This document shows positions 6,083 to 53,162 of a DNA stretch of 64,000 bases, one piece after another. The stretch spans positions 6,138,001 through 6,202,000 of the forward strand of contig NZ_CP026124.1 in assembly GCF_002902905.1 (NCBI RefSeq), given 5' to 3'. The translations under genes were made by a program, and so were the position numbers. Source of the DNA: Achromobacter sp. AONIH1. GTDB lineage: Bacteria; Pseudomonadota; Gammaproteobacteria; Burkholderiales; Burkholderiaceae_B. Each line of letters starts with the position of its first letter. Within the stretch, counting starts at the first letter, position 1. The notes under the pieces were generated by a model. The model did not search any database. It saw only the letters and a list, made by a program, of their open reading frames with translations, and was not told the origin of the DNA.

Positions 6083-6649
6083 TCAAGCCCGCGCCAGCCT
6101 GGCCCCGGCGGCCAGCGCCACCGCCACGGTCGTACGCACATCGGCCAGGGCGCGGTGAGTCGGATCCGACGCGCCCACGTGACGGGCCAGGATATCCAGT
6201 TTATGGGACGGCAGTTCCGGCCAGGCGCGTCGCGCCAGCGCCAGCGTGCAGTGCACCGGGTTGGCGAAGGCCAGCCCGGTCTGGTCCGAGGCGGCCGCCA
6301 GGAAGCGTCGGTCGAACGAGGCGTTGTGAAAGAACACCGGCAGGTCCTCGACGAAATCCAGGAAGGACGAGAACGCCTGCCTCACGGGGATGCCAAACCG
6401 GTCCACTTCGGCCTGCGTGATGCCGGTCAGTTGGCTGATGAACGGCGGCACCCGGCCCCTTGTGCGTACCACCTGCGCATATTCCCGCTCGCAAACGCCA
6501 TCGGCCTGCACGCGCACCGCGGCGATTTCAAGAATCTCGCAACTGGCGGTGGACAGGCCGGTGGTTTCCAGGTCGGCCACGACGAAAGGGCCGCGCAGCG
6601 CATGCAGCGCGGCGGCCAGGGGCGCCGGCAAGGCCCGCGCGCCGCTCAC
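6083..6649 (-). CDS. DnaQ-like 3'-5' exonuclease
   Basis: 188 residues, a stand-alone DEDDh exonuclease related to the epsilon subunit of DNA polymerase III. The first motif is D26-x-E28 in 'VVADLETTGLS'; the middle motif has 'FFHNASFDRRFL'; the last is 'HRALADVRTT', the HxAxxD motif. No helicase or polymerase domain is attached. The start overlaps the stop of the upstream DUF1653 gene by 4 bp, so the two are translationally coupled. The substrate (DNA, RNA or oligonucleotide) cannot be told from sequence. Confidence 0.9.
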   Translation of the reverse strand: MSGARALPAPLAAALHALRGPFVVADLETTGLSTASCEILEIAAVRVQADGVCEREYAQVVRTRGRVPPFISQLTGITQAEVDRFGIPVRQAFSSFLDFVEDLPVFFHNASFDRRFLAAASDQTGLAFANPVHCTLALARRAWPELPSHKLDILARHVGASDPTHRALADVRTTVAVALAAGARLARA

Positions 6650-6867
6650 TTAGCGTCCAGCGGCGCGAAGCGCGGCGAACCGTCGGCCAGCTGGCCGAAG
6701 AACATGTCCGCCGGCCGCACCCACAGGCCGCGCGCATGCGGCCACAGGTGTTCGTACACCACCATGGTTTCCAGCGTTTCGGAATGGCGGGCTTCGCCCA
6801 CATAGCGGTACAGACCGCCCTTGTAATGACGGTGCGAGGCAAGGGCCAGGGCTTCGGATTCGGTCAT
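6646..6867 (-). CDS. DUF1653 domain protein
   Basis: 73 residues. The family pattern is clear: 'HYKGGLYRYVGEARHSETLETMVVYEH' (given here in two pieces in the protein, residues about 13-40), then 'LWVRPADMFF'. DUF1653 proteins are small cytoplasmic beta-rich proteins of unknown function, often encoded beside nucleotide-processing enzymes, as here. It is the first gene of a probable three-gene unit with the exonuclease and the MazG-like enzyme. Confidence 0.85.
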   Translation of the reverse strand: MTESEALALASHRHYKGGLYRYVGEARHSETLETMVVYEHLWPHARGLWVRPADMFFGQLADGSPRFAPLDAK

Positions 6868-6975
6868 GGGCGTGGCAATGGCGGCGGACCCGGACGGAGA
6901 TCTTGCCGCCCGGGCCCGCGAAGTTCAGGCAAGACGCACTTTATAGCGCATCCCGCCGTCCGCCTGCCGCGCCCC

Positions 6976-8439
6976 TCAGTAGCGGACGTACTCCAGCACC
7001 GGCTTGGACGGCATGGGCGTATTGGCCGCGGGGCGCGCCCGCACGCCCTGCGCCACCGGCTTGACCACGGAGACCGGCCGCAGCTCGCGCTCGGCCGTCG
7101 ATTGCCTGAGCACCTGGGCGGCGTCGGCGGTCATCGCAGTGATGTCTTCGGTCACGTCGCCAAGCTTGGACGACTGCGCCAGCGATGCCTGGACCACCTC
7201 GCCCATGATCTCGGTGACCCGGTGCGACGACGTGACGATGTCATCCATGGTGCTGCCGGCCGACTGGACCTGGACCGCTCCCGCCTGGATCTGCTCCACC
7301 GACGTGGTGATCAGCCCCTTGATCTCCTTGGCCGCCGCGGCGCTGTTCTGCGCCAGGCTGCGCACCTCGGCCGCGACCACGGCGAAACCCTTGCCGTGCG
7401 GGCCGGCCCGGGCCGCCTCGACCGCGGCGTTGAGCGCCAGGATGTTGGTCTGGAAGGCGATGCCGTCCATCACGCCGATGATTTCGGAAATGCGGCGCGA
7501 GCTGTCGGTGATGGCGGACATCGTGCGCACCACGTCCTGCACCGTGCGGCCTCCCTCTTCGGCCACCTTGCAGGCATCCTGCGCCAGCGTGTTGGCCTGG
7601 GACGCGCGTTCGGCATTCTCGGTCAAGCCCTGCACCGTGACCCGCAGCGTCTGCGCGGCGGTGAAGCGCTTGGTGATGTCCGTGGCGTACTTGACCACCT
7701 TGAAGGGCCGACCCTCGGCATCGAGGATGGGGTTGTAGCTGGCCTCGATCCAGACCTGCCGGCCGCCCTTGCCGATGCGCAGATACTGTCCGGCGTCATG
7801 GCGGCCTTCGCGCAGCTTGCGCCAGAATTCCTGGTAGGCGGCGCCGCGCGCCTCCTCCGGCGTGACGAACATGCTGTGATGACGGCCGACGACTTCGTCG
7901 GCGCGGTAGCCCATGGCATCCAGGAACAGCTCATTGGCGCGTAGTATCGTGCCGTCCAGCTCGAATTCGATGATCGCCTGGACTTTCGAAATCGCCGCCA
8001 GCTGGCCTTCGAAATCGGCCTGCCGCTGCTGCTGTTCGCTGATATCGGTCGCGTACTTGATCACTTTCAACGGGCGACCGCGCTTGTCACAGATCGGACT
8101 GTAGGTGGCTTGCAGCCAGACATCGCTGCCGTCCTTGCGCACGCGCCGATAACGGCCGGCATCGTAGGCGCCCTGCCCCAGTTTTTCCCAGAACTCGGCA
8201 TAGGCGGCGGAATCACGTTCTTCCGGGCGTATGAACATGCGGTGATGCTGTCCCAGAACCTCGTCCAGGGAATAACCCATGGTGTCCAGGAAATTCTGAT
8301 TGGCCATCAGGACATGACCCTGAAGATCGAACTCGATGACTGCCTGGGCTTTGTGAATTGCCGCGATCTGACCGTATAGATCCGCTTTCTGCATGCCGCG
8401 TTCGACGCGGAGCAGGCGGTTGAGGGTAAGCCAATGCAT
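6976..8439 (-). CDS. Soluble double-PAS methyl-accepting chemotaxis protein
   Basis: 487 residues. Two PAS domains lie at about 20-135 and 145-257, each with the 'GYSLDEVLGQHH'/'GYRADEVVGRHH' and 'IKYATDI'/'VKYATDI' hallmarks. A chemoreceptor signalling domain follows at about 270-450, whose hairpin tip reads 'AFQTNILALNAAVEAARAG'. No membrane segment or HAMP domain is present, so it should be cytosolic and sense a diffusible or redox/energy signal through PAS. There is no NWETF-type CheR pentapeptide at the end. The start is supported by AGGAGG 7 bp upstream of the ATG at 8439. Confidence 0.92.
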   Translation of the reverse strand: MHWLTLNRLLRVERGMQKADLYGQIAAIHKAQAVIEFDLQGHVLMANQNFLDTMGYSLDEVLGQHHRMFIRPEERDSAAYAEFWEKLGQGAYDAGRYRRVRKDGSDVWLQATYSPICDKRGRPLKVIKYATDISEQQQRQADFEGQLAAISKVQAIIEFELDGTILRANELFLDAMGYRADEVVGRHHSMFVTPEEARGAAYQEFWRKLREGRHDAGQYLRIGKGGRQVWIEASYNPILDAEGRPFKVVKYATDITKRFTAAQTLRVTVQGLTENAERASQANTLAQDACKVAEEGGRTVQDVVRTMSAITDSSRRISEIIGVMDGIAFQTNILALNAAVEAARAGPHGKGFAVVAAEVRSLAQNSAAAAKEIKGLITTSVEQIQAGAVQVQSAGSTMDDIVTSSHRVTEIMGEVVQASLAQSSKLGDVTEDITAMTADAAQVLRQSTAERELRPVSVVKPVAQGVRARPAANTPMPSKPVLEYVRY

Positions 8440-45747: not shown

Positions 45748-46763
45748 GCCCCGGGACCAGGCCCCTGGCGCTTCTGCCCCGCGCAGCATTCCAGCAGGAT
45801 GGCGGCGAACGCCTCTTCCGCCACCAGCGCCCGGGCCTCGCGGCGCCGGATCAGGTTGATGGGCGGAAGCTCCCAGCCGAAATCCCAGGGCACCCTGCCT
45901 AGCTTGCCGTGCTGGCAGACCTCCGCCGCGATGTCATCCGGCAGCACGGAAACCAGCGCCTCGTCGGCCGCCAGCATGCCCTCGATCACGTCGGTCGAGT
46001 AGGCTTCCAGCACCGGCGCGGGCGCGCGCAGGCCCGTGTGGATGAAATGCTCGGCGATCAACCGGCGGGTCGGCGTGCCGGCTGCAGGCAAGACCCAGTC
46101 CATGCCGGCCACGGCCGCCCAGTCGGATTTGCGGCGGGCAAGCCGCCGCGCCGATGCCACATGGGCGACCAGGCACGGCCGCTGCCGGTAGAGCACATGG
46201 TGGGTCAGGTCGTCCGCCACCAGCGTCGACGTGGCCCGGCTGATGACGCAGTCGAGTTCATGCCCGCGCAGCATCGGCACCAGCTGATCGGTGGTGGCCC
46301 GATGCAGGGTCAGGGTCGCGCCGTGCCGCCGGTACAGCCCGCTGGCGGCCGCGCTCAGCAAGGTCGCCGACACATAGGGCACCGCGCCCACCTGCAGATG
46401 GGCCGAGCGTCCCTCGTGCACCGACGCGATCTCGCGCGCCCATAGTTCCAGGTCATGGCGCATGCGGCCGGCGCGCAGCAGCGCCAGCTCGCCCAGCGGC
46501 GTCGGCCGCAGGCCCCGTCCCGTGCGTTCGAACAGCGGCGCGCCGAAGATGTCTTCCAGTTCCGCCAGCGCCTTGGTCACGGCCGGCTGGCTGATGCCCG
46601 CCGCCGCGGCCACGCGCGTCAGCGAACCCAGCCGGGCGATGTCGGCCAGCAGGCGCAGATGCCTGGGCTTGAGCCGGTTGCCCAGCCGCGCGCCATCCCG
46701 GGGTTCTAAGCCAGAACCGCCGAAATTTCCGTCATCCCAGCTCCAGCCCCGCCACGAGCGCAT
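45744..46763 (-). CDS. LysR-family regulator split by Tn3-family transposon
   Basis: The native part is 45744-46697 (317 codons). HTH at the N-terminus ('RLGSLTRVAAAAGISQPAVT' region, core TRVAAAAGISQPAVTKALAE), then a two-lobed effector domain. The transposon inserted after the second codon. The remaining frame happens to be open through the left terminal repeat to an ATG at 46763 inside the end of tnpA, which would add 22 transposon-coded residues (MRSWRGW...) before the native Asp. The original start is at 53055. The chimera keeps the whole HTH and could be functional if translated, but no good ribosome-binding site precedes 46763. It was probably the regulator of the divergent ggt operon at 53163. 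Confidence 0.85.
   Translation of the reverse strand: MRSWRGWSWDDGNFGGSGLEPRDGARLGNRLKPRHLRLLADIARLGSLTRVAAAAGISQPAVTKALAELEDIFGAPLFERTGRGLRPTPLGELALLRAGRMRHDLELWAREIASVHEGRSAHLQVGAVPYVSATLLSAAASGLYRRHGATLTLHRATTDQLVPMLRGHELDCVISRATSTLVADDLTHHVLYRQRPCLVAHVASARRLARRKSDWAAVAGMDWVLPAAGTPTRRLIAEHFIHTGLRAPAPVLEAYSTDVIEGMLAADEALVSVLPDDIAAEVCQHGKLGRVPWDFGWELPPINLIRRREARALVAEEAFAAILLECCAGQKRQGPGPGA
46700..46735 (+). repeat. Terminal inverted repeat, left end
   Basis: Begins GGGGTTCTAAGCCAGAACC and overlaps the tnpA stop codon. Matches the complement of 53008-53043 in 33 of 36 positions. Confidence 0.95.
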
Positions 46764-49761
46764 CCAGGTCGATCATCTTGCCGTCGCTCTGGAAGGTGTA
46801 ATGCCCGTTCAGCAGGATGTGCCGCCAGGCCGCCGGCGATATCTGGGTCAGGAGAGCGTGCGCCTTGGCGTTGCCGCTCGCCTCGTACTTCATCAGCAGC
46901 CGCGAGAGGATGGCCGAGTTGTAGAAGATGACCGCGTTGGCGATCAGCCTGGCGCACTGGTTGCTGATCTCAATTTCGATGTCGGTGCGCCCGGTCAATT
47001 CCTTCTTGCCGCCGACCTGGGCGATGGTTGAGCGTAGCTGGTGATAGGACTCGATGCGGTTCTGTGAGCGGTGAACGTTGCGCTCCAGTTGCGGATCGCG
47101 CAGGTAGCGCAGCGTGTAGATGCTGCGGATGAGCTTGTCGAACTCGAACACCGCGCGCCGCGTGGGGTTCGGCGCGGTGTAGGTGCATAGCTTGCGGATC
47201 AGCGTGCCCTGCGTCATCTCCTTCAGTCCGAGCGTGGCGACAATCTGGTCGAGGTTCGGCTTCTCGCTGACTATGAGATCGCGGTCGATTCTCCCGGCCG
47301 GCCGGATCAGGCACTGATCGTACAGCGCCGGATCGTCGGCACTGTAGAGTTCCTTCAACTGATCGCCAAGGTCGGTGAAGCGCGGCTCGAAACGCAGGCC
47401 GAACCAGTGCAGGATAGCGAAGTTGGCCTTGTTGACGCTGTGCATGTCGCCGGTGATCGCGGTCGGCACGATGTCCGACGTGTTGCGATACCAGATGTCG
47501 AACACGTGATGGGCCTCGTAATCGTGCGCGCCGATCAGGTAGCCGTTGAGCGGCACGTGGTTGCACAGCAGCGTGTAGGCGACCACGCCCTTGCCGCGCC
47601 CAAAGTATTTGCGCGAGTGGCGCGCTTTCACGGTCGGCCGCTCGACGCCGAATTTCTGACCATCGACGGCACCGTACAGTGCATCGAGGTCGAACGAGTA
47701 GTACGGGAAGATCGGCAGCGCGGCGATGGCGTTGCTGATGCAGTCGTTGGCCGCGTGCAGCGTTGCGTGGCGCAGGTACTGTTGGTAGGCGCTCTCCAGC
47801 ACGTGGTACGGGATGTCGCTGGTGCGTGCCATGACCTGGTTGCCGTGGTTCATCGCCTGCGCGATGATGACCGCCATCAGGCTGTCGGCGTCGGCGACCT
47901 TCTTCGCATAGCGCGGCTGCAAAGGCGTCAGCGCCGACAGGAACTGGCACTGGCCGTTGACGAAGCGGAACACGTCGGCCACGTCGCAGAACGGCAGTTG
48001 CTCGTAGAACGCCTTCTCGCGCGCCTTCTGGTTCTCGCCCTTGGGCTTGCGCCATGTCAGCTTCTGCGTGTCCTTGTCGTATTCTAGGTGCGTCAGCTTG
48101 CCCTGCTTCAGCTCGCGGTTGAAGGCCAGCCACTGAGCGCGCAGCTCGGTCGCGAGCGCATCGAGCTGGGCATCGAGTGGCTGCCGCAGGAACGGGATGT
48201 CGATCTGCGCCAGCACGGCGGCCTTCTCATCCAGCGAAACCAGCTCGTCGGAAAAATGCCGGTGCTGCAAGCTGTCGTCGAGGTAGAGTTCACCCGACTG
48301 GAAGCGCTTCCTGACCTGGCGGTACAGCCAGAACTCGTAGCGGTCGGCATGCAGGTCCGTCGGCTTGCCATCGGCATCGAAGGTCAGCAGGTACGGTCGC
48401 AAGCGTTTCGGCAGCGTGGCCGCTGGACATTCGGCGAGCGGCCGTTGCGATAGGCGCTGCTGTTTGGCGAACACGTCCTTGGCCCAGGCCAGCGCCACGA
48501 GCCACGGGCTGCCCGGATCAGTGCCAGCGAGGTCGAGCGCGACATACAGCGGCCGAAGATGGCGGCGGATGCGCTCAGCCAGGCCGTCCACCGCCTGCCA
48601 GTGCAAAGCCAGCTTGCTCACCGGCTTCACGCTCATGCGCTGCGCGGTGGTTTGCAGCGTATCGCGGGGCATGATTTTGTAGGCGCGCTGGCGCACATCG
48701 CCGAACGGCGTGGGATCGGGCACGCTGTCGTCGATGTAAAGCGACAGCAGGCGGCCGACCTGCGGTGTGTCTTGCTGACGGCGCACCTGCTCGGCGACAA
48801 AGGATTGCTTTGCGCCCGCACTGCTTTCGTCCTCCAACTGCTTCATGTGGTAGGCCATCGCATCGACCAGGTTGTCGGAAAGCTGCCGGTAGCGCACCCA
48901 GGCATAGCAAAGCAGGTAGAGGTAGGTCTGATCGGCCTTCAGGTTGCGTAGATCGTGGACGGTGTAGAAGTTCGCCAGGCTGGCGTAGTACAGCAGATTC
49001 TGCTGCGAGACGCCGAGCTTGGGCAGCAGCGCCTTGGCGATCCGGTGCAGCGGCTCCAGCGTGGCGCGCTTTTCGCGTTCGCGGGCCATCTGACGCCAGC
49101 CAAAGTCCTTGGCGTCCTGCTTGAGCGCCGCCAATTGCGACAGGGTGTCGTCACGCACTAGAAGCCGACCCAGCGCGGCCTTGGCCGATTCGTCCAACAC
49201 TTCCGACAGCAGGCCAGCCAGCCGCCGACGCTCGGCGGACAGGGCTTCGCTCACCAGCTCTTGCAGGGTGGTATAGCCGGGCCGGATGATCTTGTGCTCG
49301 TTTAGCCAGACGATCAGCTCGGCGGCGATGAACCCCGGCATCACGTCGCGCCGCACGGTCTGCGCGGCCTGCTGCGCGAGCTGCGCCAGGAACTCGGCCG
49401 CCCACGGCCGGTAGCCGAACAGATCGGCAATCCACTCGCGCTGGGTGTAGTGCTCGTGCTTGGAGATTGGCTTGTGCTCGAAGGACTCGCCGTGGAAGTA
49501 GCGGCTCAGCACGAAGGCGCAATCGTGCTCGACCTCACTCCAGTCGAAGCGGAAGAAGGCATGCTTGGCCTTGAAGTAACCGATCTGCAAGATGCAATAG
49601 ACCTGGGCATGGAGACCAGGCCGGCTGCTGGCGAGCGCCAGTTCGGTTTCAGTCAACGCCAAGTATTCCAGCCGCTGGGCGTCGTCGAAGTCCGGCAGGC
49701 CGTACAGGGCTTCCTGCTCGGCGTCCGACAGGACGGTCAATCGTTCGCTCTTGGTCGTCAT
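46732..49761 (-). CDS. tnpA: Tn3-family transposase TnpA
   Basis: 1009 residues, normal size for the family. Catalyses replicative transposition to a cointegrate. The DDE residues are recognisable: Asp in 'YGAVDGQKFGVERPTVKARH' (20 residues), Asp in 'AITGDMHSVNKANF' and Glu in 'SQNRIESYHQLRSTIAQ'. The ATG at 49761 overlaps the tnpR stop by 4 bp and is preferred over a long upstream extension that lies in tnpR in another frame. The last codon lies in the terminal repeat. Confidence 0.95.
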   Translation of the reverse strand: MTTKSERLTVLSDAEQEALYGLPDFDDAQRLEYLALTETELALASSRPGLHAQVYCILQIGYFKAKHAFFRFDWSEVEHDCAFVLSRYFHGESFEHKPISKHEHYTQREWIADLFGYRPWAAEFLAQLAQQAAQTVRRDVMPGFIAAELIVWLNEHKIIRPGYTTLQELVSEALSAERRRLAGLLSEVLDESAKAALGRLLVRDDTLSQLAALKQDAKDFGWRQMAREREKRATLEPLHRIAKALLPKLGVSQQNLLYYASLANFYTVHDLRNLKADQTYLYLLCYAWVRYRQLSDNLVDAMAYHMKQLEDESSAGAKQSFVAEQVRRQQDTPQVGRLLSLYIDDSVPDPTPFGDVRQRAYKIMPRDTLQTTAQRMSVKPVSKLALHWQAVDGLAERIRRHLRPLYVALDLAGTDPGSPWLVALAWAKDVFAKQQRLSQRPLAECPAATLPKRLRPYLLTFDADGKPTDLHADRYEFWLYRQVRKRFQSGELYLDDSLQHRHFSDELVSLDEKAAVLAQIDIPFLRQPLDAQLDALATELRAQWLAFNRELKQGKLTHLEYDKDTQKLTWRKPKGENQKAREKAFYEQLPFCDVADVFRFVNGQCQFLSALTPLQPRYAKKVADADSLMAVIIAQAMNHGNQVMARTSDIPYHVLESAYQQYLRHATLHAANDCISNAIAALPIFPYYSFDLDALYGAVDGQKFGVERPTVKARHSRKYFGRGKGVVAYTLLCNHVPLNGYLIGAHDYEAHHVFDIWYRNTSDIVPTAITGDMHSVNKANFAILHWFGLRFEPRFTDLGDQLKELYSADDPALYDQCLIRPAGRIDRDLIVSEKPNLDQIVATLGLKEMTQGTLIRKLCTYTAPNPTRRAVFEFDKLIRSIYTLRYLRDPQLERNVHRSQNRIESYHQLRSTIAQVGGKKELTGRTDIEIEISNQCARLIANAVIFYNSAILSRLLMKYEASGNAKAHALLTQISPAAWRHILLNGHYTFQSDGKMIDLDALVAGLELG

Positions 49762-50351
49762 CGCGATGACGCTCCACGAGAGCCCGTCCAACCAACCCGT
49801 GCCAGGGTCTCGATCAGCGTGGTTCGCTTGACGCCGAAGTTGCGGCACACCGCCGCCTTGGACATGCCGCCATCGAGCGCAGCGACGATGGCCTCCAGCT
49901 TCTCGCCGGTGATCGCCTGCGGCCGGCCGCCGATCCGGCCGCGTTTGCGGGCGGCAGCCAGACCGGCGACGACACGTTCCTGGATCAAGGCGCGTTCGTA
50001 CTGCGCGAGCGCGCCGAACACCTGGAACAGAAACTCGCCCGAGGGCGTCGTGGTATCCAGGTTCTCCGTCAGCGAGCGGAACGCCACCTGCTTTTTCTTG
50101 AGCGAGGTCACGATGGCGAGCAAGTGCGACAACGAACGGCCGAGCCGGTCGAGCTTCCACACGACCAACACGTCGCCAGGGCGAACGAATTCGAGCGCCC
50201 GCGCCAGGCCCGCGCGGTCGTCCTTCGCGCCGGAAGCATGATCCTCGAACAGATGCCGCGCATCGACGCCGACGGCGAGCAGCGCATCGCGCTGCAAGTT
50301 CGTGCTCTGGCGGTCGGAGTCCGACGACACGCGCATGTAACCTACCAACAT
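49758..50351 (-). CDS. tnpR: Serine resolvase TnpR
   Basis: 197 residues. Catalytic domain begins 'MLVGYMRVSSDSDRQSTNLQ' (20 residues) with the active Ser in RVS, then 'LFEDHASGAKDDRAGLARAL' (20 residues) and 'VVWKLDRLGRSL'. The C-terminal DNA-binding helix-turn-helix includes 'SKAAVCRNFGVKRTTLIETL'. It resolves cointegrates at the adjacent res site and, as in related elements, probably represses itself. Start at 50351 is used; an upstream ATG adds 21 atypical residues. Confidence 0.93.
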   Translation of the reverse strand: MLVGYMRVSSDSDRQSTNLQRDALLAVGVDARHLFEDHASGAKDDRAGLARALEFVRPGDVLVVWKLDRLGRSLSHLLAIVTSLKKKQVAFRSLTENLDTTTPSGEFLFQVFGALAQYERALIQERVVAGLAAARKRGRIGGRPQAITGEKLEAIVAALDGGMSKAAVCRNFGVKRTTLIETLARVGWTGSRGASSR

Positions 50352-50353
50352 AA

Positions 50354-50488
50354 GCGGAAAACCATTAAGACGAGGTTTCCGTATGGTAGCGTCTGGCGAC
50401 AGAGTTTTCCGCACAATTTTGCGGCCACTCGGAGGTTGGTGCAGAGGACCGTTGAAGGCCTGTCGAAAAACAAATGTTTTCCGACAGG
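50354..50488. other. Resolution (res) site with three subsites
   Basis: Three dyads built on GCGGAAAAC-like half sites. Site I (crossover) is 50459-50488 with arms CCTGTCGAAAAAC and GTTTTCCGACAGG around AAAT. Site II is about 50397-50424. Site III is 50354-50383 (GCGGAAAAC ... GGTTTCCG), next to the tnpR start. The order I far and III near to tnpR is the usual Tn3 layout. Confidence 0.7.
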
Positions 50489-50552
50489 CCTTGGCCTAGC
50501 GCACGCCCGCCTTGCAGCGTTCTGTGAATAGCGCTTAGTAATGACGGCGTAT

Positions 50553-50567
50553 ATACTTTGTTAGTAT
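50553..50567. promoter_or_regulatory. Palindrome upstream of the toxin-antitoxin pair
   Basis: ATACTTTGTTAGTAT, a short dyad 22 bp before the antitoxin start, embedded in an AT-rich patch; position and symmetry suit an operator for an autorepressing antitoxin. Confidence 0.45.
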
Positions 50568-50589
50568 CAAGTGGCAGGAGGCCCCGATC

Positions 50590-50868
50590 ATGTCAAAACA
50601 AGCCGTTTTCACGATGAAGCTGGAGCCTGAGTTGCGCGCCGAGTTTATGGCCGAAGCCGAGGCGGCCCATCGCCCGGCGTCGCAAGTGCTGCGCGAGCTG
50701 ATGCGCGAGTTCGTTCAGCGCCAGCGCGAGTCGCGCGAGTACGACGAGTTCCTGCGCCGCAAGGTCGAAGCCGGCCGGGCTTCGATGCGCGCTGGATTGG
50801 GGCGGTCGAACGATGAAGTTGAGGCCGAATTCGCCGCACGGCGTGCCAGTGTGGCGAGCCAGGCGTGA
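50590..50868 (+). CDS. Type II antitoxin, ParD/RHH-like
   Basis: 92 residues. The N-terminus 'AVFTMKLEPELRAEFMAEAE' (20 residues) has the ribbon-helix-helix pattern of a DNA-binding antitoxin; the C-terminus is a charged, probably disordered toxin-binding tail. AGGAGG lies 9 bp before the ATG. Its stop overlaps the toxin start (GTGA). Toxin-antitoxin pairs next to res are a known feature of Tn3-family elements. Confidence 0.85.
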   Translation: MSKQAVFTMKLEPELRAEFMAEAEAAHRPASQVLRELMREFVQRQRESREYDEFLRRKVEAGRASMRAGLGRSNDEVEAEFAARRASVASQA

Positions 50869-51149
50869 GGGTTGTTTGGACGCCCGAAGCGCAGCAAGAC
50901 CGTGCCGATGTGTGGGACTACATCGCAGCCGACAATCCGCGCGCGGCGGCCCGGATGGATGAGATTTTCAGCGACGCGGCCGCCCGCTTGATCCAGCACC
51001 CCATGCTGGGCAAGCCGGGAAAGATTCCCGGGACCCGCGAGTTGATCCCGCACGAAAGCTATCGCCTGGTGTATCAGATCGACGGCGAAACGGTGTGGAT
51101 ACTGACGCTGGTTCATACTGCCCGCCTGTGGCCGCCTGTGCGCGATTAA
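50865..51149 (+). CDS. Type II toxin, RelE/ParE family
   Basis: 94 residues. 'RVVWTPEAQQDRADVWDYIA' (20 residues) at the start and 'ELIPHESYRLVYQIDGETVW' (20 residues) followed by 'ILTLVHTARLWPP' are the classic ParE/RelE fold. GTG start. ParE types poison gyrase, RelE types cut mRNA; the lack of a clear RelE catalytic triad favours ParE, with low confidence. Confidence 0.88.
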   Translation: MRVVWTPEAQQDRADVWDYIAADNPRAAARMDEIFSDAAARLIQHPMLGKPGKIPGTRELIPHESYRLVYQIDGETVWILTLVHTARLWPPVRD

Positions 51150-51555
51150 GATATGATCATGGCAACAATGAAACGGCGCGTTGACAGACTGCTTTCGAGC
51201 CAGACCGCGGTCGGCGGCAGGCGGCCAGTTGCGGACGGTCAAGCATCTTCCCGGTAGCGGACGTTCAATAGTGTCTCTGACCTGCTTCGCTCCCTCTATG
51301 AAGGGAGGTCGCTGGCCCATCCGCGCACTCACAGCCTGCCAGTAGGCGCAAATTGGCAGCGCTCCGTCCGGCAGCGCACAGACTGCGGCCGTACGTCCGC
51401 GTAGGTTCGCTTCAGCAGTTTCGATTCGAAAGTTCAATGTGATTGCTGCGGGCGGTCGTCGCAGTTGCGCGGAGGCGATGATGCACAAGCACGGGATCGG
51501 CAGATAGGTTCTTCGAAGCTGCAAGAGTTAAAACATTCACACATGAAAGATTGAA
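51150..51555. other. Non-coding stretch inside transposon
   Basis: About 400 bp between the toxin gene and the first cassette-like gene. Contains two imperfect GCGGACGTTCAA-type repeats near 51228 and 51257, and a GTTAAAA (51527-51533) that resembles an attC core (GTTRRRY) at the expected left border of the first cassette. No integrase gene or convincing open frame. Confidence 0.4.
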
Positions 51556-52116
51556 ATGGATACACGATTATTTGCTTTCGTCGGCGCAGACATTGGCCCT
51601 TGGCGGATTGTCAGGGCCGAAACGAGAGTTGGCGAGCCCCTGCCTGAAGCCAAAAGGCTCAACGTCGTATCCGCTTCAGAGTTGCAGTCTGAAACCAATG
51701 CACCCTGGATACTTCGTGGAATAACCAGCAATGAACGATATGTCATGCGCGCAGAGAAGAATGAAATTGTAGCGAAGCAGCAAGGTCTGGCGCGCCCAGA
51801 AGCAACGTGCGGTGCGCTAATACCGATCCGGAAGAACGCAGCTTGGTGGGAGCTCACGCAAGACGAACGCCGGAGCGTTTTCGAACAGTCGAAGCACGTC
51901 CAAATCGGGCTTCAGTATTTGCCTGCAGTAGCGCGCAAGCTCCACCACTGCCGCGACCTCTCAGAGAATGAACCGTTCGATTTTCTGAATTGGTTCGAAT
52001 ACGCGCCAATTCATGAGGTTGAGTTCAACAGGCTGCTTTCCGAACTGCGTGCGTCAGAGGAATGGAAATACGTCGACCGAGAAGTCGATATTCGTCTTAC
52101 GCAAGCACAGGTCTAA
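51556..52116 (+). CDS. Chlorite-dismutase-family protein in cassette-like unit
   Basis: 186 residues. The C-terminal half carries the pattern of short chlorite-dismutase-family proteins: 'KHVQIGLQYLPAVARKLHHC', 'PFDFLNWFEYAPIHEVEF' and 'EEWKYVDREVDIRL'. Such proteins can bind heme, but which His is the ligand cannot be judged here, and chlorite or peroxide activity is not shown. Base composition is much lower in GC than the chromosome. The stop codon lies inside the first attC-like site (52111-52191), as is common for cassette genes. No ribosome-binding site of note. Confidence 0.65.
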   Translation: MDTRLFAFVGADIGPWRIVRAETRVGEPLPEAKRLNVVSASELQSETNAPWILRGITSNERYVMRAEKNEIVAKQQGLARPEATCGALIPIRKNAAWWELTQDERRSVFEQSKHVQIGLQYLPAVARKLHHCRDLSENEPFDFLNWFEYAPIHEVEFNRLLSELRASEEWKYVDREVDIRLTQAQV

Positions 52117-52191
52117 CCCGCCGATGAACACGGACCCCCAACAGCGGCGCGTTGCGCCGCCGTTTCGGGCCGGTTATCGGCAACGTAGAAC
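52111..52191 (+). other. attC-like recombination site 1
   Basis: GTCTAAC (inverse core, 52111-52117) and GTAGAAC (52185-52191, a degenerate GTTRRRY) frame a long imperfect hairpin. Inner arms pair as GAT[G]AAC[A]CGG[A]CCC (52123-52137) with GGGCCGGTTATC (52167-52178), every unpaired base on the same strand, as with attC extrahelical bases. The tip is a 7-bp stem GCGGCGC/GCGCCGC. Confidence 0.6.
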
Positions 52192-52249
52192 TCTCGGATA
52201 CAGTTGTTCTGTAATAACTTCTCAAGCCAAATTGATTTTTGGAGTGGAT

Positions 52250-52606
52250 ATGGAAATGGAATCAAGAATATTTTCGGTAACAGAATATATTCGTCCGTCT
52301 GACGGCGAACCAATTCGTTCAGTGGTTCTGGAAACCAAGGACTCAGCAGTTGTTGTTTGGCATGCCCATCCTGGGCAAGAAATAACCGCTCATGTTCACC
52401 CGGACGGCCAAGATACTTGGACGGTTATCTCTGGAGAGGCTGAGTATTACCAAGGAGGCGGCAAAGTCGCTCATCTAAAGGCTGGAGATATTGCCATAGC
52501 AAAACCTGGCCAAGTGCATGGCGCTCTAAATACTAGTCCAGTGCCGTTTGTATTTGTCTCAGTGGTTGCATCTGGCAACGCGGGTTTTGCGTTGGCTGAA
52601 AAATAG
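52250..52606 (+). CDS. Cupin-domain protein in cassette-like unit
   Basis: 118 residues, a single small beta-barrel. Cupin motif 1 is 'WHAHPGQEITAHVHPDGQD' with metal-ligand His residues; motif 2 is 'LKAGDIAIAKPGQVHGALN'. ATG at 52250 has GGAG 5 bp upstream. GC content is low. The gene lies between two attC-like sites, so it fits a mobile gene cassette. The substrate or ligand is unknown. Confidence 0.85.
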   Translation: MEMESRIFSVTEYIRPSDGEPIRSVVLETKDSAVVVWHAHPGQEITAHVHPDGQDTWTVISGEAEYYQGGGKVAHLKAGDIAIAKPGQVHGALNTSPVPFVFVSVVASGNAGFALAEK

Positions 52607-52633
52607 TCTTTCTCAAATGTGTGCCCCAGAGAG

Positions 52634-52703
52634 TTCTAACCCATCCATCAACACGGACGCTGCGCGATGAAGCCGCGCCGCGCCGGCTAACTCCACGTTG
52701 AGC
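52634..52703 (+). other. attC-like recombination site 2
   Basis: Inverse core TTCTAAC (52634-52640) and consensus core GTTGAGC (52697-52703, fits GTTRRRY). Inner arms pair as AAC[A]CGG[A]CGC (52650-52660) with GCGCCGGCT (52680-52688), with the same bulged A residues as site 1. Both sites share AACACGGAC. Confidence 0.65.
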
Positions 52704-53007
52704 GTCAGCTTTCCATATGTCTGGGGGTCTGCAACGGGTCGGGTGCCGTCGCGTGCGCAGTGTCAAAGCTGACATGACTAATACATGAGATGGGCTGATG
52801 CTCGCCGTCCGGTCAGGCAGCTGCCCCCCTGCAGGACTCACAGCAGTTGTATGCCACCCGTCATCCGAGACGTCAGTCGGCCTCATCCAGACCGGAACAA
52901 TCTGGACGTGACGTCCGGCTGGCATTGCCGTGATCGAAATGGCGGCTAGTGACACGACTGTTGGGTCTACCCCATCGACCGGGCGCGGGACAAGCCACGT
53001 TGATCGG
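52704..53007. other. Right-end transposon DNA without gene
   Basis: About 300 bp. A 9-bp inverted repeat GTCAGCTTT/AAAGCTGAC (52704-52712, 52765-52773) is the only structure noted. A minus-strand frame across this region lacks protein-like features. Confidence 0.4.
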
Positions 53008-53043
53008 CTGACGGAATTTTCGGCGGTTCCGGCTTAGAACCCC
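53008..53043 (-). repeat. Terminal inverted repeat, right end
   Basis: Reads GGGGTTCTAAGCCGGAACC on the minus strand from 53043 inward; partner of 46700-46735. ATCCC follows at 53044-53048. Confidence 0.95.
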
Positions 53044-53048
53044 ATCCC

Positions 53049-53065
53049 AATCCATGCAGGCCTCC
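53049..53065 (-). other. Displaced start codon and RBS of the split LysR gene
   Basis: On the minus strand GGGAGGCCTGC-ATG-GAT-T reads into the target duplication. Joining 53055-53044 to 46694 gives Met-Asp-Trp-Asp-Gly-Ala-Arg, in frame with the LysR gene ending at 45744, for a 320-residue protein. This proves the insertion point and original start. Confidence 0.93.
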
Positions 53066-53162
53066 CATAGCCATATGGTTATTCAGATATGCCAACAAAT
53101 ATACGCGCAGTTATTTCACGCTCCTATACTGGCCTGGTCCCCAGCTTCAGGCGCAGACCGGC

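Follow-up and report, generated by a model that had tools for sequence, protein, structure and literature searches.

Chlorite dismutase (Cld) genes have been described on Tn3-like transposons. One was reported in such a transposon on pTL8 (PMC7728920), and in the Tn3-like transposon Tn7774 cld is associated with the class 1 integron In7755 (PMC11823659), which suggests that Cld genes could occur together with integrons in other places too. Barnum and Coates (2022; PMC9751292) found the Cld protein WP_011514928.1 in genomes from 18 genera, with a cupin in 90% of the neighbourhoods whose Cld is identical across genera, and with neighbours that include the transposase WP_012077404.1 and toxin and antitoxin accessions. 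Here we analysed a stretch of 64,000 nucleotides of Achromobacter sp. AONIH1 (hereafter the window; bases 6138001-6202000 of the single-contig 6.65-Mb genome, NZ_CP026124.1), in which a Tn3-family transposon carries a Cld gene followed by a cupin gene. Our results argue strongly that these two genes are real integron cassettes, an integrase-less pair (a cluster of attC sites lacking an integron integrase, CALIN) that forms the passenger block of the transposon. A CALIN in a Tn3 element is an already known kind, and the locus is a further case.

The locus shares with the transposon-borne Cld of PMC9751292 the same Cld protein, the transposase, the toxin and antitoxin accessions, and the cupin partner. 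The word "integron" does not occur in the main text of that paper, and the cassette origin is an addition made here. In the available text of the CH34 genome paper (PMC2864759), the cupin goes unmentioned and "integron" appears in a reference only. As in Tn7774, a chlorite dismutase gene and integron parts are combined in a Tn3-like transposon; Tn7774, however, holds a complete class 1 integron with resistance cassettes (PMC11823659). No description of attC sites in the transposon at 46700-53043 was found in the open-licence literature, a scope outside which subscription journals and supplements fall. Like a CALIN, the locus has two attC sites within 0.6 kb, in the same orientation, with a gene before each and no integrase over cut-off. 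What sets it apart is that it lies inside a complete Tn3-family transposon, that both of its sites are damaged, and that cassette 1 has no defined left end. It also resembles cassettes at secondary sites (aadB in RSF1010, known here from a title in a reference list) in that the cassettes lie outside any integron, and it differs from that case in that two cassettes with two attC sites make up the passenger of a transposon that is spread over many genera. The features on which the argument rests are as follows.

46700..53043: Tn3-family transposon, with 38-bp terminal inverted repeats and a 5-bp target duplication
51556..52116, plus strand: cassette 1 gene, chlorite dismutase family protein of 186 aa; DNA identical to the pMOL28 copy, WP_011514928.1
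52111..52191, minus strand (bottom strand folded): attC site 1, with R'' at 52111-52117 and the R' core at 52185-52191; contains the stop codon of gene 1
52186..52697, plus strand: cassette 2, core to core; one T short at its start relative to L099, which starts GTTAGAACTCTCGG at the same place
52250..52606, plus strand: cassette 2 gene, cupin domain protein of 118 aa
52634..52703, minus strand (bottom strand folded): attC site 2, with R'' at 52634-52640 and the R' core at 52697-52703

The letters of both sites, as first read from the window in the original prediction, were confirmed: GTCTAAC (52111-52117) and GTAGAAC (52185-52191) in site 1, TTCTAAC (52634-52640) and GTTGAGC (52697-52703) in site 2, and the TAA stop codon of gene 1 (52114-52116) inside site 1. 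The two adjacent genes are indeed low in GC (0.53 and 0.48, against 0.61 for the transposon and 0.67 for the window). The sites share a 27-nt direct repeat containing AACACGGAC, 81% identical between them; AACACGGAC is not peculiar to the window and is present in attC sites of L044 and L074 too (L numbers denote loci fetched from other places and genomes). The R'' box of attC sites follows the consensus RYYYAAC. Site 1 fits it, and TTCTAAC of site 2 has T for a purine at position 1, a box also present in attC sites elsewhere (L044 3749, L088). For R', the consensus GTTRRRY is given in PMC10127599; GTTGAGC of site 2 fits, and GTAGAAC of site 1, with the triplet GTA, is off consensus. Of the two core sites originally proposed, the second is intact and the first damaged. 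Folding of the bottom strand gave a z of -4.27 for site 1, with none of 200 shuffles as good and three single bulges, and a much weaker structure for site 2 (z -1.40, 17 of 200 shuffles as good), whose arms pair imperfectly. Extrahelical bases on the folded bottom strand were clear in site 1 and weak in site 2. Hence the paired arms with single bulges that had been predicted for both sites, and the folding proposed as their check, hold clearly for site 1 and only weakly for site 2.

In order to score the sites with a covariance model, we turned first to Rfam, where a scan of the window gave no family at the gathering threshold; since Rfam gave no attC model, we built our own. Integrase-bearing genomes of the class were picked with TIGR02249 (103 of 274 over cut-off), and the stretches beside their integrases were fetched. 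A strict attC pattern was too narrow in these integron loci, and a relaxed pattern combined with folding yielded 101 candidates, 38 of which were chosen by eye after exclusion of duplicates, transposon ends and doubtful palindromes; the L035 and L044 1516 sites were turned round by eye. The training set thus held 36 sites beside integrases and two from the class 1 integron of L072, none of them from the window, and the resulting model, R1, was built on 38 well-aligned attC sites with 18 pairs. On both strands of the 64-kb window, R1 gave two matches at E ≤10, each directly behind a gene: site 1 (52111-52190, minus strand, 36.2 bits, E 2.4e-7) and site 2 (52634-52703, minus strand, 19.5 bits, E 0.0059). 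The covariance check that had been suggested for 51150-53043 thus came out positive at both sites, and without filters the third-best place in that piece reached 7.6 bits. In the whole genome at E ≤1 three places were matched, namely site 1 (2.4e-5), 2640470-2640585 (0.003) and site 2 (0.61). The middle one is a lone attC-like site outside the window (L156 1501-1616, 28.2 bits) that adjoins an IS256-like transposase gene, as judged by eye.

Of attC sites outside its training set, R1 also recovered the one behind aadB in L005 and those that follow qnrVC1, cupin, arr-3 and dfrA in L010. Among 23 further loci searched at E ≤5, it matched in seven (L005, L010, L012, L074, L086, L088, L099) and not in the other 16 (L008, L009, L064, L065, L066, L068, L069, L070, L071, L081, L082, L083, L087, L089, L100, L101). 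In 22 more loci the near-identical copies matched, at both sites in eight and at site 2 alone in L080; beyond these copies there was one match of 10.4 bits (L114), and L067, L084, L085 and L090-L098 gave nothing. As for an integrase, none of the four partial TIGR02249 matches in the genome passed the cut-off. The locus is thus not a complete integron, there being no intI over cut-off in the genome, and with two attC sites and no such integrase it is a CALIN by the two-site threshold of PMC9024848.

The sites are also homologous to attC sites elsewhere. When the passenger block was searched against 100 relatives (three candidates scored per genome), the full block was not reported, short matches only; 20 of these did not come from the window's own genome, 18 falling on site 2 and two on site 1. 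Nine such loci were fetched, and in eight the matched place was called attC, in several within attC arrays; the ninth, L170, gave no attC match. Each site accordingly has sequence relatives that serve as attC sites in the arrays of further genomes in the order. Over 60 nt, site 2 agrees with the attC of blaOXA-2 at about 82% of positions; with an attC-model match on a Serpentinimonas plasmid its identity is 89% over 46 nt. In the blaOXA-2 attC (L072), L162, L164 and L012, 53-56 of 70 aligned columns are identical to site 2, which differs from all four by two C changes that both cut pairing, namely a C where all have T in CCGGT and a C in the stem where all have A. The reduced pairing fits the poor fold of site 2 (z -1.40).

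Homologues of both genes stand as cassettes in other loci. The relatives of the cupin gene include cassettes with the same ends, GTTAGAAC and GTTCTAAC. In L010 (NZ_CP095921), a cupin gene 81.6% identical at the nucleotide level lies between qnrVC1 and arr-3 of a class 1 integron, with GTTAGAAC in front, GTTCTAAC behind, and attC on both sides. This array (qnrVC1-cupin-arr-3-dfrA) therefore holds a homologous gene with the same ends; it is an antibiotic-resistance array, whereas the window cupin adjoins Cld and its 5' core is one T short. In L099, from Halomonas (88% aa identity), the DNA matches the window from GTTAGAACTCTCGG onward, where the window reads GTAGAACTCTCGG; the DNA preceding the cupin cassette is unrelated by eye, GTTAGAAC is intact, and an attC follows the gene. 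In L086 the cupin gene lies between two attC matches. In L074 (G164), attC sites flank a Cld relative of 61-63% identity, whose stop codon, like that of the window gene, falls within R'' and whose attC has the arms CGCCGATGAA and TTATCGGCA in common with site 1. In 369 genomes of the class at E ≤1e-30, the Cld search returned the genome itself and L074 only. The search for both genes beside other attC sites, which the original prediction had called for, was thus successful (cupin in L010, L086 and L099; Cld in L074). Taken together, the attC model, the cassette homologues, the relatives of the sites, the missing intI and the transposon ends bear out its central claim of two cassettes without an integrase inside a Tn3-family transposon.

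Several observations weigh against this conclusion. Site 2 scores low (19.5 bits), and its genome-wide E of 0.61 is not significant alone, so that its identity rests also on its position and on its homology to known attC sites. R1 gave one stray match of 24.5 bits away from the cassette array in L010 (1689-1756), so that a score in the range of site 2 cannot on its own count as proof. The 5' GTTAGAAC core was found in four of the 22 non-identical cupin relatives (L082, L086, L087, L099) and GTTCTAAC behind the gene in three (L086, L088, L099); 18 are without the former, 19 without the latter and 17 without both. An attC match beside the cupin gene was seen in just three of the 22 (L086, L088, L099). 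The nearest Cld relatives (about 86% nt identity; L008, L064-L068) are without an attC match in all six cases, so either the attC was lost in them or it was joined to the gene in the window lineage. Because these attC-less relatives share the leader of the gene, no left end can be assigned to cassette 1. An empty target site was not seen among the matches listed, and no direct search for one was made.

Many of the remaining cupin relatives have a Cld gene directly after the cupin gene. The cupin-Cld pair also occurs in other layouts, in L009 as annotated and in L083 by sequence, and in L065, L066 and L067 cupin and Cld lie near nucleotidyltransferase genes, some with DUF86.

51470..51555, plus strand: Cld leader, also conserved in six relatives that are not cassettes; includes the 9-codon ORF 51478-51507

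The start of cassette 1 had been placed at 51527. We rejected this boundary, since the six relatives that are not cassettes still agree with the window for 55 nt before 51527, back to about 51470, and the GTTAAAAC motif recurs in one of them. With a leader shared in this way, 51527 does not mark a joint made by recombination; a joint could lie near 51460-51470, though that stretch has no consensus core. The leader ORF (51478-51507, MMHKHGIGR, nine codons) shows one amino-acid change in the six aligned non-cassette relatives and is a possible leader peptide.

The transposon that carries the pair encodes the following, in addition to the cassettes.

46732..49761, minus strand: TnpA, Tn3-family transposase (NF033527, 870 bits); protein identical to the L005 copy annotated WP_012077404.1
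49758..50351, minus strand: TnpR, serine resolvase; protein identical to the L005 copy
50590..50868, plus strand: probable antitoxin, a small protein whose gene precedes that of the toxin; identical to the pMOL28 copy WP_011342941.1
50865..51149, plus strand: RelE/ParE-family toxin; identical to the pMOL28 copy WP_011342942.1
51235..52730: variable passenger block; the sister transposons L069-L071 diverge at 51223-51234, and L069 and L070 rejoin at 52731-52736

The inverted repeats (46700-46737 and 53006-53043) are 38 nt long and 92% complementary, and ATCCC borders the transposon as a 5-bp direct repeat at 46695-46699 and 53044-53048. Transposase, resolvase, 38-bp inverted repeats and 5-bp target duplication, the marks of the Tn3 family, are thus all present. 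The probable antitoxin (50590..50868) has no Pfam or NCBIfam match of its own, and WP_011342941.1 is listed with the antitoxin label in PMC9751292. Between tnpR and the toxin-antitoxin genes lies a near-perfect palindrome (50455-50492, 18-nt arms with a 2-nt gap), possibly part of the resolution site. The passenger block (51235-52730) is present in a single copy in the genome. Of the plasmid collection, 14 records cover 50400-53160 to at least 80%, at 99.7-100% identity, the carriers including Cupriavidus metallidurans pMOL28, Achromobacter, Hydrogenophaga, Alicycliphilus, pAKD4 and K. quasipneumoniae. In the GTDB collection, identical cupin proteins occur in Pigmentiphaga, Paenacidovorax, Castellaniella, Chitinilyticum, Brucella grignonensis, Piscinibacter and a Comamonadaceae bacterium. 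The Cld, cupin, toxin and antitoxin genes of the window are the pMOL28 copies letter for letter. No promoter-like site was found in 51150-52760. Cassette excision was sought in the Delftia copy L159, where Cld is gone beside an IS5-type element and not at an attC point.

These features are consistent with a mechanism in which each cassette consists of an ORF followed by its own attC site. Judging by the homologues, the cassettes would once have owed their mobility to an integron integrase, with the folded bottom strand of attC as its substrate, and the intact ends, the target duplication and the spread suggest that the pair now moves as one unit by TnpA and TnpR. The original prediction had the transposon pick up the cassettes by integrase action and then move them by TnpA; we infer the same movement, whereas capture by an integrase is not distinguished from transfer of a ready-made array.

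For this route we give about even chances to a ready-made array segment, the block 51235-52730, having been swapped in without an integrase through recombination at shared break points. Such an exchange concerns the route alone, and the genes stay cassettes. The same backbone carries other passengers in its sisters, namely an NYN protein (L069), a PaaI thioesterase with an IS21-type element (L070) and the PAU-1 beta-lactamase (L071), the left break lying at 51223-51234; L071 does not rejoin the shared backbone within the fetched stretch, and the attC model found no match in L069, L070 or L071. The swapped block is wider than the cassettes, which favours whole-block exchange over direct insertion by an integrase. 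In addition, most of 51235-51470, together with 52704-52730, matched near-identical copies only among the matches listed (best 60 of 68 and best 60 of 334 records); a few records match up to 51248. However, no donor array with such flanks was seen, and the break points could be mere ends of conserved backbone.

Somewhat less probable, though a serious candidate, is that an integrase from elsewhere put the cassettes straight into a secondary (attG-like) site of the transposon. Insertion of aadB at secondary sites is indicated by titles in the reference list of PMC10127599, and the K. quasipneumoniae copy of the transposon (L005) has cassettes, in reverse, at a G|TT point inside site 2; on the other side, no empty site was seen and the left joint cannot be located.

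52690..52691, minus strand: point at which L005 carries its reversed cassette pair, within L' (the 3' inner arm) of site 2; bottom strand G|TTAGCC

The cassettes in L005 are an aadB-cupin pair (6292-7472), which interrupts site 2 in reverse orientation. On the bottom strand its joints read GTGGAG|TTAGGC and GGGCG|TTAGCC, where the window has GTGGAGTTAGCC; it is thus a G|TT event at 52690/52691, off the canonical point. These joints suggest that an integrase has acted on the transposon, and normal recombination of the sites is not demonstrated by L005. One may speculate, with considerable doubt, that the transposon is a roaming integrase-less landing pad whose half-worn attC sites take cassettes from resident integrases and then spread them across genera.

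A further reading, which we consider unlikely, takes the cupin alone as a cassette and Cld as an ordinary transposon gene that landed before an attC. The six Cld relatives of about 86% nt identity share the leader and are all without an attC match. They stand in other mobile contexts (in L066 and L068 a Tn3-family transposase is annotated beside the Cld relative), and L008 and L064-L068 match the window only over 51472-52097, so that homology stops just short of the stop codon and site 1. Against this stands the distant Cld relative of L074, which is a cassette with the attC arm letters of site 1 and its stop in R''. The R'' box often contains TAA, and for this reason the stop in R'' alone is weak evidence. 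That the structures are transcription terminators or palindromic repeats merely resembling attC is very improbable and was rejected, since, GC-rich hairpins behind stop codons though they are, both match the attC model, both are homologous to attC sites of arrays, with the likeness to the blaOXA-2 attC in addition, and the sole terminator-like match (52072-52089) lies off both.

Returning to the cassette pair, both attC sites look like decaying sites: site 1 has lost the last T of the GTT crossover triplet, and site 2 has changes that weaken the hairpin. The lost T of the site 1 core (GTA, not GTT) is common to all 12 other near-identical copies that keep that place, and a thirteenth, L080, is rearranged at the site 1 core. 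IntI1 requires 5'-GNT-3' and is lax at the second base (PMC10127599). The GTA of site 1 breaks this rule, from which site 1 is predicted to be impaired and to recombine poorly; site 2 keeps an intact core, which an integrase may still recognise.

The Cld protein matches PF06778 over cut-off, and its closest solved chlorite dismutases are 9gtj (E 7.5e-79) and 3qpi (E 5.9e-59); the closest solved structure to the cupin is 3h8u. Most likely, as judged from sequence, Cld and its usual cupin partner detoxify chlorite and related chlorine oxidants. The matching accessions and the Cld-cupin linkage reported in PMC9751292 make chlorite detoxification with cupin help the likely role.

In summary, if our reading is true, a chlorite-detoxifying Cld-cupin pair came from integron arrays and afterwards became fixed in a transposon. 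It would clearly exemplify how cassettes leave the integron economy, both attC sites wearing down once TnpA took over, and it would mean that integrase-negative strains, such as that of the window, can carry cassettes and pass them on. Collectively, our results suggest that a widely spread mobile gene pair for chlorine stress likely had its origin in integron cassettes.

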